DNA of 64,000 nt. It comes from Oceanobacillus senegalensis (lineage in GTDB: Bacteria; Bacillota; Bacilli; Bacillales; Amphibacillaceae). Under the pieces are notes generated by a model. That model worked only from the letters and a program-made list of their open reading frames with translations. It had not been told where the DNA came from and searched no databases. Position 1 is the stretch's first letter. Every line of letters starts with the position of its first letter. The position numbers and the translations under genes are program-made. Location of the stretch: NCBI RefSeq assembly GCF_900176885.1, contig NZ_LT839648.1, positions 2,189,740 through 2,253,739 on the forward strand. The letters are read 5' to 3'. Shown piece by piece: positions 53,825 through 57,256 of this stretch.

Positions 53825-55033
53825 AAGTTTTGCTTTAACATAACCATGGATAAAGACTACACTAAATAAGATTCCTCCTACTAATGCAAGTATAAATCCT
53901 AAGTATTCTTGAGTAAGCACAAATAGTAATGCAAAAATTGCGGTTTGAAAAAAGCTTAACTGATATAGGATTTTTATCATGGATTGTTTTCTATCTCTTT
54001 GTTCAATCGGATAGAGGTCCAACCACATATTGGTACGATGATGATGGTATAATGCCATCATTTGAAACACACTTAAATAGATAAACAAGATGCTAAATAC
54101 TACCTTTATCCACATGTTTGGAACCAAATAGATAAAAAGCCCACCCATGACTATTAATCGAAAATACATACCAATGTATTCCCCGCTACGAACAAAGGTA
54201 ATACGATATAAATAATCGTAACTGTACTTTTTCTGATGAGGAATTCCTCTAGTAACCAAATTGACTAGCCATTGCCGTTTTTTTACACGAGCTTTTAAGT
54301 GGGGTACGTCTGCAAACATGTTAGCAAAACGATAAAAAGCTTGTAATCGATGTTGATCCTTTTCAATAAGAAGATCCCAATTAACTCCCACATATTTTTT
54401 GGAAACGGAATAATCGTAAAAGAAAATGAACACAAATAATAACGCGATAATTCCAGCAAACAGCACATCTCCTCTTACTAAGAAATAAAAAAAGGCAATG
54501 TTTAATAAAGAACGAGCAAGAATATCCATTTTTCGACTTTTTTTATCTCTAACCTTAAGCATCCACCAATTTGCAATAAGATTCCCTAATTTTAGAATGA
54601 GTAATAAGAGAAGTGTCAGTAAATATGTACTTCCAGACCTTTCCTCATACATAGAAAAATATAATGGACCTAATGCTGCTGCAAGTAAAAAAATTAAATA
54701 TAGCTGTATAACAAAACTATAAGTAATGGAATGACGGAAATAAGCACCCATACGATCTTCTGCTACGATGATAAAAACGAGGTCTGGTTCCTTTAATAGA
54801 GTTCTTACAGGACTGTAACTAGCTACTAAACCGAACAAAAGACCAATAATAATAGCAGTCGGGAAGTGATCAGGCAATTGTTTTAACCATTGCTGGTAAT
54901 ACACTGCCAATGTGGATATTAAAAAGAAAATCACAATAAGCATGTGTCCATTTAAGATATAACGCAAATACCTCCCTAATTCTTTCATATGGGCAGATAA
55001 GCGTTGCTTATAAAAGGAATGAGAATCAAACAT
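53819..55033 (-). CDS. ecsB: ABC transporter permease EcsB
   Basis: The 404-residue polytopic protein has an N-terminal LKELGRYLRYILNGH-like start, paired helices and SYSPVRTLLKEPDLVFI, which is characteristic of EcsB. With EcsA it forms an exporter affecting secretion, competence and regulated proteolysis. Its ATG overlaps the ecsA stop by eight bases. No ecsC follows, unlike in B. subtilis. Confidence 0.92.
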   Translation of the reverse strand: MFDSHSFYKQRLSAHMKELGRYLRYILNGHMLIVIFFLISTLAVYYQQWLKQLPDHFPTAIIIGLLFGLVASYSPVRTLLKEPDLVFIIVAEDRMGAYFRHSITYSFVIQLYLIFLLAAALGPLYFSMYEERSGSTYLLTLLLLLILKLGNLIANWWMLKVRDKKSRKMDILARSLLNIAFFYFLVRGDVLFAGIIALLFVFIFFYDYSVSKKYVGVNWDLLIEKDQHRLQAFYRFANMFADVPHLKARVKKRQWLVNLVTRGIPHQKKYSYDYLYRITFVRSGEYIGMYFRLIVMGGLFIYLVPNMWIKVVFSILFIYLSVFQMMALYHHHRTNMWLDLYPIEQRDRKQSMIKILYQLSFFQTAIFALLFVLTQEYLGFILALVGGILFSVVFIHGYVKAKLA

Positions 55034-55769
55034 GGCTATCTTCCTTTGTTAGCTGTACATATAAATCATCTAATGTAGCATTAGACATATTAAAGGACTC
55101 GCGTAATTCGTCCAATGTCCCCATTACTCGTATTGTTCCTTCATGTAAAATCACAAAACGATCACAGTAGCGCTCAGCTGTTGCTAAAATGTGGGTGGAC
55201 ATTAAAACGCCAGAACCATTATTTTTCATTTCATTCATTAACTGCAAATATGATTGAATACCTAAAGGATCTAGTCCAACAAAAGGCTCGTCCACAATAT
55301 ATAAAGGTGGTTCAATTAAAAATGCACACATGATCATTACTTTTTGACGCATTCCTTTAGAAAAATGGACAGGAAACCAATTTAATTTTTTCTCTAAACG
55401 AAACTCTTTTAATAGTGGTGGAAGTCTTTTTTCAAAAACGTTTTCATCTATTCCATAAGCCATTGCAGTCAATCGTAAATGCTCATAAAGTGTGAGTTCA
55501 TCATAGAGTATCGGCATTTCAGGGATATAGGCCATTTGATTGCGATAGGTTGTCGGATTTTCTTTAAATGTTTTTCCATTCACTTTAATCGTACCTTTTT
55601 TTGGTTGCATCAAACCTATAACATGCTTGATGGTTGTACTCTTCCCCGCCCCGTTTAAACCTATTAACCCAACAATTTCTTTGGGCCGAACGTCAAAAGA
55701 AATACCATGTAACACATTTTTATGAGTATATCCTCCATAAAGATTATCTATATGTAGCAATGAATCCAA
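55026..55769 (-). CDS. ecsA: ABC transporter ATP-binding protein EcsA
   Basis: The 247-residue ATPase has Walker A GLNGAGKST, signature FSKGMRQK (degenerate, as usual in this group), Walker B PPLYIVDEP and H-loop STHI. TTG start with GGAGGAATAGAC. It is divergent from hit across a one-kilobase region with two structured RNA-like elements. Confidence 0.94.
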   Translation of the reverse strand: MDSLLHIDNLYGGYTHKNVLHGISFDVRPKEIVGLIGLNGAGKSTTIKHVIGLMQPKKGTIKVNGKTFKENPTTYRNQMAYIPEMPILYDELTLYEHLRLTAMAYGIDENVFEKRLPPLLKEFRLEKKLNWFPVHFSKGMRQKVMIMCAFLIEPPLYIVDEPFVGLDPLGIQSYLQLMNEMKNNGSGVLMSTHILATAERYCDRFVILHEGTIRVMGTLDELRESFNMSNATLDDLYVQLTKEDSHV

Positions 55770-55926
55770 GTCTATTCCTCCTCTACACTACCTTTGATTT
55801 TATCATTTTTACCTATCATTTCCAAAATAAACTGTCAGTCAAATATCGACAACTAGTAAATCATTTGCGTAACAGTATGTAGGCACCAATTCCGTAAAAT
55901 ATGGTATAAGAACCTAAAATACAGTT

Positions 55927-56302
55927 CATAATAGGTAGTGAAGAAACGGGGTGCAACAAACACTCTAGCGTGTGAATCACAAATGAGGTGTTAGTGATCG
56001 AGTTACTAATGTAATTTCGTGTTATTAATTAAACACAAATGAGGTGTTAGTGAACGATAACTAATCTAACGTTTTGTGAACCAATACCACACAAATGAGG
56101 TGTTCGTGTTGGCGTTCTAATGACTGAAAACCCTTTTGCCAGAACCCATCTCATCCCTGAGATGCTGACAAAAAGGTTTTTGTAAACAGAAGTTAAATTC
56201 AATTTAACGTAGTTTACGGTCCCCACTCATTAGTCTTACCACCTCGTTTCTTCATATGGAATAGACCCTTTCGCTTGGGAGGCGAATAGGGTTTATTCTT
56301 TT
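55927..56302 (+). ncRNA. Structured RNA-like element, tandem copy 1
   Basis: No ORF of useful length exists here. A long-range stem closes the element: GTGAAGAAACGGGGT (55938-55952) can pair with ACCTCGTTTCTTCAT (56241-56255) over 15 bp with two G-U pairs. CACAAATGAGGTGTT occurs at 55978, 56034 and 56090, exactly 56 nt apart, each time as a CAC/GTG-stemmed hairpin with loop AAATGAG. An AAAACC...GGTTTT compound hairpin (56127-56180), a GTAAAC/GTTTAC hairpin and a final GAATAGACCC/AGGGTTTATTC terminator with six T follow. The strand is inferred from the terminator. Rfam identity is unknown to me. Confidence 0.7.
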
Positions 56303-56360
56303 TTCTACATCATCCTTCCTTTTACTTAAAAATTATTGTATATGAACGTAATATCCGGTC

Positions 56361-56737
56361 CATAATACGTAGTGAAGAAACGGGGTGCAACAAACACTCT
56401 AACGTGTGAATCACAAATGAGGTGTTAGTGATCGAGTTACTAATGTAATTTCGTGTTATTAATTAAACACAAATGAGGTGTTAGTGAACGATAACTAATC
56501 TTATGTTTTGTGAACCAATACCACACAAATGAGGTGTTCGTGTTGGCGTTCTAATGACTGAAAACCCTTTTGCCAGAACCCATCTCACCCCTGAGATGCT
56601 GACAAAAAGGTTTTTGTAAACAAAAGTTAAATTCGATTTAACGTAAGTTTACAGGTCCCCGATCATTAGTTTTACCGACCTCGTTTCTTCATACAGAATA
56701 GACCCATTCGCTCGGAAGGCGGATAGGGTCTATTCTT
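56361..56737 (+). ncRNA. Structured RNA-like element, tandem copy 2
   Basis: This second copy lies 434 bases downstream of the first and keeps every structural feature: stem arms at 56372-56386 and 56678-56692, the three CACAAATGAGGTGTT motifs at 56412, 56468 and 56524 (again 56 nt apart), the AAAACC/GGTTTT hairpin and the final AGAATAGACCC hairpin. Substitutions lie mostly in loops and in the distal third. It ends 90 bases before hit, so it could act as an independent RNA or as a hit leader. Confidence 0.7.
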
Positions 56738-56827
56738 CTGTTACAACAAATATTAAACTAATTACTTTACTTTCGGCCCTTAACCTATATAGAATAATGT
56801 TAATCAGACAAAGGAGTGTGTTAATTT

Positions 56828-57256
56828 ATGGGTCATGAAGATTGCATTTTTTGTAAAATTATCAATGGTGACCTTCCTTCAGCAAAAGTTTACGAAGATG
56901 ATTACGTGTATGCATTTTTGGATATTTCCCAGGTTACAAAGGGACATACACTAGTTATTCCAAAAACGCATACTAAAAACATCTTTGAAACACCAGCAGA
57001 AGTTTCAAAGGAGCTATTTGAACGAATTCCTAAAGTTGCTAACGCCATTAAAGAGGCCTATAACCCCCTCGGTATGAACTTATTGAATAATAACGGGGCA
57101 GACGCTGAACAATCCGTATTCCACTTACATATTCACTTAATTCCACGTTACGGTGAAGGTGATGGATATTCGCCAAATTGGACGACTCATACAGATGATT
57201 ATACACCTGATAAACTACAAGAGATTGCTGCCGAGATTAATCAAAACATTAAATAA
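56828..57256 (+). CDS. hit: HIT family hydrolase (Hit)
   Basis: The 142-residue histidine-triad protein is a nucleotide phosphoramidase/AMP-lysine hydrolase type. The triad is H99-L-H101-I-H103 in SVFHLHIHLIPR. CIFCKI at the N-terminus and further residues bind zinc. ATG follows ACAAAGGAGTGTGTTAATTT. It is divergent from ecsAB, as in B. subtilis. Confidence 0.93.
   Translation: MGHEDCIFCKIINGDLPSAKVYEDDYVYAFLDISQVTKGHTLVIPKTHTKNIFETPAEVSKELFERIPKVANAIKEAYNPLGMNLLNNNGADAEQSVFHLHIHLIPRYGEGDGYSPNWTTHTDDYTPDKLQEIAAEINQNIK

Follow-up and report, generated by a model that had tools for sequence, protein, structure and literature searches.

The closest described system is the forespore small RNA of the hinT-ecsA gap. 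In B. subtilis, ncr1670 is located in this gap (PMC3574147) and is the same RNA as S357 (PMC4410918). The S357 homologue of B. velezensis, Bvs196, is a 294-nt forespore sRNA of the same gap that is controlled by sigma F and chiefly by sigma G, and PMC9147052 describes abundant forespore expression, a spore-resistance phenotype of the knockout, conserved stems with variable loops, and 3' ends that are conserved within Bacillus. Two other sRNAs resemble in part the RNA of the window, the window being the whole stretch of 64,000 nucleotides from Oceanobacillus senegalensis that was analyzed. CsfG (RF00516, opposite strand) is also a forespore sigma-F/G sRNA conserved in spore formers, according to work cited in PMC8216469 and PMC9147052, but it lies at a separate locus (G000:C4:1894353-1894476) and has a CU-rich core instead of the GRGGUG repeats of the window RNA. 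RF00516 gives no match to the window RNA, and its sole match in G000 is elsewhere. Rfam RF00516 models the ylbH strand, and CsfG is the opposite strand. RosA, the sponge of RoxS and FsrA, likewise stands alone as an sRNA and has G-rich regions, among them one that resembles the SD of a 7-aa ORF, but differs in being CcpA-controlled (PMC8216469).

The ecsA-hit gap of the window comprises two copies of one non-coding RNA gene, 434 bases apart. DNA self-comparison places the element copies at about 55910-56304 and 56344-56740, and the RNAs measure about 367-369 nt from closing stem to terminator. Each copy has a forespore-type promoter, a long-range closing stem, three exact occurrences of AAATGAGGTGT (motif A), a 3' hairpin domain, and a terminator. 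The features, with the basis of each assignment, are as follows.

55026-55769, minus strand: ecsA, divergent neighbour (ORF, synteny)
55904-55933, plus strand: copy 1 promoter, GTATA-N18-CATAATA, sigma-G/F type (pattern match)
55938-56304, plus strand: RNA copy 1, closing stem to terminator (sequence and fold)
55938-55952, plus strand: copy 1 closing stem P1, 5' strand, pairing with 56241-56255 (fold, covariation)
55981-55991, plus strand: copy 1 motif A, first, AAATGAGGTGT (motif match)
56037-56047, plus strand: copy 1 motif A, second (motif match)
56093-56103, plus strand: copy 1 motif A, third (motif match)
56117-56233, plus strand: copy 1 3' domain (covariation, weak for the GTAAAC hairpin)
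56241-56255, plus strand: copy 1 closing stem P1, 3' strand (fold)
56260-56304, plus strand: copy 1 intrinsic terminator (fold, covariation alignment, pattern)
56338-56367, plus strand: copy 2 promoter, GTATA-N18-CATAATA (pattern match)
56372-56740, plus strand: RNA copy 2, closing stem to terminator (sequence and fold)
56415-56425, plus strand: copy 2 motif A, first (motif match)
56471-56481, plus strand: copy 2 motif A, second (motif match)
56527-56537, plus strand: copy 2 motif A, third (motif match)
56678-56692, plus strand: copy 2 closing stem P1, 3' strand, pairing with 56372-56386 (fold)
56697-56740, plus strand: copy 2 intrinsic terminator (fold, pattern)
56766-56795, plus strand: housekeeping-type promoter of hit, 3' of the copy 2 terminator (pattern match)
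56828-57256, plus strand: hit (hinT), neighbour (ORF, synteny, PF01230 match)

The promoter matches follow the sigma-G/F and housekeeping consensus sequences. From promoter sequence and homology, the RNA would be expressed in the forespore of O. senegalensis. A sequence-only reading of this DNA had proposed two tandem copies at a distance of 434 bases, and that offset is recovered, with 93.1% identity over 408 columns in the local self-alignment; the global alignment of copy 1 with copy 2 spans 398 columns, of which 28 are substitutions and 4 are gaps. The 15-bp closing stem it described is found at the positions listed and is present in the minimum-energy folds of both copies, and its AAAACC/GGTTTT hairpin and terminators are also present in both, by folds and patterns. 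Its three-hairpin array survives as three modules but not as three separate hairpins, because modules 1 and 2 pair with each other in the minimum-energy fold and module 3 alone forms a separate hairpin. The statement that differences between the copies spare stems and core motifs holds for all three copies of the motif, for the closing stem's 5' strand, and for the stem of the AAAACC hairpin, but not for the GTAAAC hairpin and the terminator, where differences occur as they do in the promoter spacer; one inserted base adjoins the 3' strand of the closing stem. In copy 1, the 3' domain consists of a CTAAT/ATTAG stem around the AAAACC/GGTTTT hairpin, the GTAAAC hairpin, and a GUCCCC segment (56219-56224). 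As had been noted, there is no ORF of useful size, the sole ORF of at least 40 aa inside the element being 59 aa long and on the opposite strand. Fold energies lie well below those of dinucleotide shuffles on the plus strand of both copies (z -8.2 and -8.6), and the reverse strand folds equally well (z -8.4), so the strand call rests on promoter, terminator, and motif, and not on energy.

The Rfam 15 families (tmRNA, 6S, RNase P, OLE, riboswitches) give no match at the gathering score in the 64-kb window. A permissive Rfam scan of the locus gives a best E no better than 0.25, and a scan of four relatives' loci, including those of B. spizizenii and B. velezensis, yields no match. The claim that the element cannot be matched to a known RNA holds for Rfam but fails for the literature, where the element corresponds to the described S357/ncr1670/Bvs196; the direct hit to a known family that the same reading had named as evidence against itself is therefore found in print and not in Rfam. 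The window RNA shares with S357/Bvs196 the hinT-ecsA gap, the strand towards hit, the promoter type, the motif, the complementary ends, and the terminator, and S357/Bvs196 carries AAAUGAGGUGU/C in three copies, like each window copy. In the gaps of B. spizizenii and B. velezensis, the same strand carries three occurrences of AAATGAGGTGT/C, ends that are complementary to each other, and a terminator. B. velezensis matches the whole promoter pattern, B. spizizenii only its -10 part, CATCATA. In B. velezensis (L144), the predicted start plus 294 nt falls on the terminator end, in agreement with the Bvs196 length given in PMC9147052. The motif is present in 78 of the 78 named loci kept among the best 80 of 556 relatives fetched, and within these best 80 the named homologues include Bacillus, Metabacillus, Peribacillus, and others. 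In contrast to Bvs196 with its 294 nt, the window RNA is about 367 nt long and its gene is tandemly duplicated. When 26 named Bacillaceae loci, among them B. velezensis, were searched for the window 3' hairpin domain with its covariance model R2, no hit surpassed E 0.18; this result and the published pattern of conserved stems with variable loops count against the identity. The case for homology is thus built on position, strand, promoter, motif, and closing ends. On this evidence, read from sequence and synteny, the window RNA is an orthologue of S357/Bvs196. The element very probably represents two complete tandem gene copies of the S357/ncr1670/Bvs196 forespore sRNA family, and each of the two has a sigma-G/F-type promoter and an intrinsic terminator of its own. 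What is new here is a tandemly duplicated member of a known, little-studied RNA; the open-access texts that were searched yielded no account of the SD-like motif and its repetition, of the occurrence outside Bacillus, or of the gene's duplication.

The sequence-only reading regarded the element as a structured plus-strand non-coding RNA gene duplicated in place and asked for covariation of its stems across relatives, which is observed. Among 26 sequences, 20 of the 47 named pairs have two-sided changes, compared with a shuffled mean of 12.9 and none of 500 shuffles as high. Two-sided changes occupy 64 cells against 21.6 in the shuffled set of the same 26 sequences, relatedness being uncorrected in these figures. 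Slid pairing controls drop to 9-14 pairs with two-sided changes. Further pair types show no excess in the 26 sequences, since 37 of 500 shuffles reach the observed value. The 3' domain taken alone has 10 of 33 pairs with two-sided changes (shuffled mean 7.6, 39 of 500 shuffles as high, again with relatedness uncorrected) in 26 cells against 11.9 shuffled, and its pair types are not in excess. Support for the GTAAAC hairpin is weak, with 66% of cells paired and no two-sided change. The R2 structure was set by hand; model R1 is sequence-only (RNAalifold returned no pair on alignment A1) and was not used. For the closing ends, 51 non-redundant RNAs were taken, order-wide, from the 97 with a promoter match. 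The 5' end pairs with its own 3' zone at -22.3 kcal/mol and with those of the others at -16.7, and the own 3' zone ranks first in 15 of the 51, where about 1 is expected. A loosened form of the forespore consensus, GHATR-N16-18-CANNNTA, sought upstream of the first motif, is matched in 98 of 146 regions (L043, excluded from the genome counts below, included); mononucleotide shuffles give 3.35 and the reverse strand 1.

By DNA search, the element is present in 25 of 98 genomes, the own genome included; hit adjoins it at 27 of 27 loci and ecsA at 25 of 27, and the two loci without ecsA lie at the start of one contig. For the remaining 73 genomes, the DNA upstream of hit was fetched and read for the degenerate 11-mer. 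By this criterion the motif is upstream of hit in 65 of the 98 sampled genomes, own included: 25 of the 25 from the DNA search, 3 of 11 of the same genus, 11 of 22 of the same family, and 26 of 40 of other families. This count is on the low side, because L055 and L066 match R2 (E 3.2e-4 and 8.4e-06) but lack the exact 11-mer and are counted as absent. The R2 matches L044 and L045 (E 8e-06 and 9e-05), with no hit gene in the fetched DNA, were left out of the counts, and L043 (same genome as L058), L204 (no hit found), and L206 (hit elsewhere) were dropped before counting. Five loci have no recognised ecsA (L081, L084, L092, L093, L115), and for these 1500 bases upstream of hit were used. Among the 73 genomes, hit-upstream regions without the motif are shorter (median 281 vs 591 bases). 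A spaced two-motif pattern occurs in 34 of the 98 genomes and its reversed form in 0. In a phylum scan, the same pattern matches 2 of 398 genomes, namely the own genome and one outside the order (1 of 391, with 1 also for the reversed control). Seven of the 398 belong to the order of the window and the own genome alone is matched, so the two-motif pattern is strict. At that strictness there is no evidence for the RNA outside the order, the natural reading of the named homologues being that this order is Bacillales. SigG is above the cut-off in 96 of the 98 genomes; the two genomes below it lack the motif, as do many with SigG. An R2 scan of 397 genomes found 9, but scored only 7 of roughly 800-2,700 candidates per listed genome and hence says little about distribution, for which the hit-upstream reading was used instead.

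Duplication is recurrent in this RNA. A second whole-gene tandem duplication is found in another family (G078, L100; 451 columns at 81%, intergenic 101-545 and 756-1186), and several Metabacillus-type relatives have 161-246 columns duplicated inside the RNA. In two genomes (G042, L246; G056, L248) a three-module paralogue lies away from ecsA and hit, one of them with a forespore-type promoter match, and these paralogues at other loci indicate that the RNA is an independent unit. Other repeats were seen near the gene. In L019 (G045), similar repeats form an array that precedes the RNA (intergenic 206-602, 80-88% identity over 89-292 columns), and L011, L015, L029, and L031, as well as L010, have a GC-rich repeat-like insert, such as GTCCGAAGACC, beside the RNA gene. 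A second motif, roughly RGGRGATGRTNRCNTTGAAC, alternates by eye with motif A in L088, L091, L094, L096, L097, L100, L101, and L112. Its GGAGATGAT is one base from the SD GGAGGTGAT, and its short core occurs 0 times in the B. subtilis group loci L136-L161 and 1-2 times in many others.

The description of the element as a large regulatory RNA was sound but incomplete, as it did not name the Shine-Dalgarno (SD)-like 11-mer that occurs three times per copy. Degenerate motif A has 419 matches in 178 regions (0-8 per region, at least one in 145); the 419 count two P1-strand look-alikes of the window copies, whereas the set of 413 modules excludes both, and the window has six true copies. A search of nine genomes with the complement of the 11-mer gave 72 sites; of the 30 that were examined, 16 are located elsewhere than in the RNA. 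In 12 of the 16, in a comparison without a random purine-rich 11-mer control, the 11-mer stands upstream of a start codon that opens an ORF of 58 aa or longer, and it is very likely their Shine-Dalgarno sequence. In the RNA itself, an AUG follows GRGG by 4-11 nt in only 4 of 413 modules against 63.8 in shuffles, and ATG, GTG, and TTG combined follow in 87 against 139.9. GUG is present at a spacing of 5 nt in 82 of the 413, so start codons are depleted, not absent; since the flank YUGYNAAAGAC is itself conserved, the modules are not independent cases of this depletion. The ORFs from the 413 modules all stay below 30 aa and end within the region.

The substitutions in the motif follow base pairing with the 16S tail. 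There are 354 distinct motif copies with at most one mismatch, and 83 of them carry one. At positions paired with the tail, 58 of 67 substitutions keep the pair (A>G opposite U) and 9 break it; the other 16 of the 83 fall on the two unpaired positions. The overall bias is A>G 58 to G>A 4. The change U>G at position 4, which gives a perfect SD, never occurs among the 83 single variants, and this U is nearly fixed. The own genome has 15 copies of the 16S anti-SD tail, which was found in 7 of 10 genomes searched. In 14 RNAs, anti-SD duplexes compared with block shuffles have a mean z of -1.45 (reversed control +0.18) and a spread of -0.3 to -5.3, a modest and uneven excess, and for the window RNA the best anti-SD site is the closing-stem strand (z -0.4). 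The hairpin directly after the 11-mer has a weak pairing excess in 248 modules, with z of 2.9 to 3.3 for three pairs and -2.7 for the next outer pair. Three other explanations of the motif were rejected: an accessible loop, as its predicted accessibility shows no excess over random 11-mers (0.37 vs 0.36); a small ORF (ATG AGG TGT), as third positions are fixed and no long ORF follows; and a conserved antisense target, as none is common outside the RNA loci among the 30 examined of 72 sites in nine genomes.

A mechanism in which the RNA acts as a multivalent Shine-Dalgarno decoy in the forespore is tentatively proposed, at somewhat below an even chance. Each module would offer an SD-like AAAUGRGGUGU to the ribosome, almost never with an AUG behind it, and the 16S rRNA 3' end may pair through GRGGUG:CACCUC plus AAA:UUU with one mismatch. 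The forespore RNA would then bind 30S subunits without productive initiation, and translation could be damped or redirected as the spore shuts down. Duplication of the gene would double dose and sites, six in the window. The fixed U at position 4 may prevent over-tight binding or may betray a protein partner, and the published antisense sites between motifs might represent a second activity. In favor of the decoy are the SD use of the 11-mer elsewhere, the avoidance of AUG together with retained anti-SD complementarity, the pairing-preserving substitutions, the excess of anti-SD duplexes, and the 16S tail, and the variable module number, with its gene or internal duplications, is counted as support. 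Against it stand the absence of U>G, since a pure decoy should tolerate or favor a perfect SD, as well as the GUG modules, the average accessibility, and the modest anti-SD excess with its weak value for the window RNA. The A>G pattern could also reflect a purine-reading protein. Ribosomes outnumber most sRNAs, which also counts against a decoy, and the published interactions (spo0A, sspN-tlp) map between motifs 1 and 2. Identity with the S357 family combined with the multivalent decoy is the best joint explanation, and its chances are about even.

Among the alternatives, a trans-acting antisense sRNA like that described for Bvs196, in which loops pair with forespore mRNAs such as spo0A and sspN-tlp and the repeats serve as a scaffold, has a limited probability. 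Bvs196 binds both targets in vitro (Kd 3.6 uM for spo0A and 74 nM for sspN-tlp) and its deletion has phenotypes in B. velezensis (PMC9147052); a C-rich segment, GUCCCC, is likewise conserved in the window RNA, and RoxS and other B. subtilis sRNAs act through C-rich regions (PMC8216469). This reading nevertheless leaves the most conserved part, the repeated SD-like 11-mer, unexplained. The published Bvs196 sites sit between motifs 1 and 2, and no shared sense target was found outside the RNA loci among the 30 examined sites of the 11-mer or its complement. A protein scaffold, with the motif and its short 3' hairpin bound by an RNA-binding protein in several copies per RNA, is unlikely. It would suit the strict conservation of the motif including the U at position 4, the weak pairing excess of the hairpin, and the variable number of modules, but the substitutions obey a base-pairing rule and the same 11-mer serves as SD elsewhere.

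The remaining two explanations have far less room. That the RNA acts as a sponge for a C/U-rich SD-targeting sRNA such as CsfG, as RosA does with RoxS, is very improbable, even though CsfG is also a forespore RNA with a gene in 15 of 15 genomes tested (L120-L134) and a nearly invariant CU-rich core, and a G-rich sponge is known in B. subtilis (PMC8216469). In 14 RNAs, the CsfG tail forms no better duplexes than its reversed control does (mean z -0.93 vs -0.96) and the CsfG loop has a mean z of -0.22, so that neither gives a specific signal and the CsfG sponge was rejected; the best CsfG pairing sites lie mostly outside motif A, and the CsfG core has no CACCUC in 15 of 15. Least probable by far is that the element serves as a riboswitch or other 5' leader of hit, or that it encodes several small translated ORFs. 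The RNA does lie directly upstream of hit on the same strand, and the GUG modules have SD spacing, but it has its own terminator followed by a separate promoter match for hit, which speaks against a leader, paralogues lie away from hit in two genomes, and the modules open no ORF of at least 30 aa.

The conserved repeats in an sRNA with a knockout phenotype suggest a mechanism, namely SD mimics without AUG. A wider and rather doubtful proposal takes S357/Bvs196 as the founding member of a class of forespore SD-decoy RNAs that would span the Bacillales. With 1-7 SD mimics on a closed scaffold and gain and loss of modules and gene copies, these RNAs would hold 30S subunits non-productively during spore maturation and contribute to translational silencing and possibly to ribosome storage in the spore. 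The absence of Rfam matches in the five loci scanned means that routine annotation would miss the S357 family, and the RNA is easily missed although the motif is upstream of hit in most of the sampled genomes of other families. Translation silencing during sporulation is called not well understood in PMC11339384, and the SD-mimic reading would make it directly testable by mutations of a few bases in B. subtilis.
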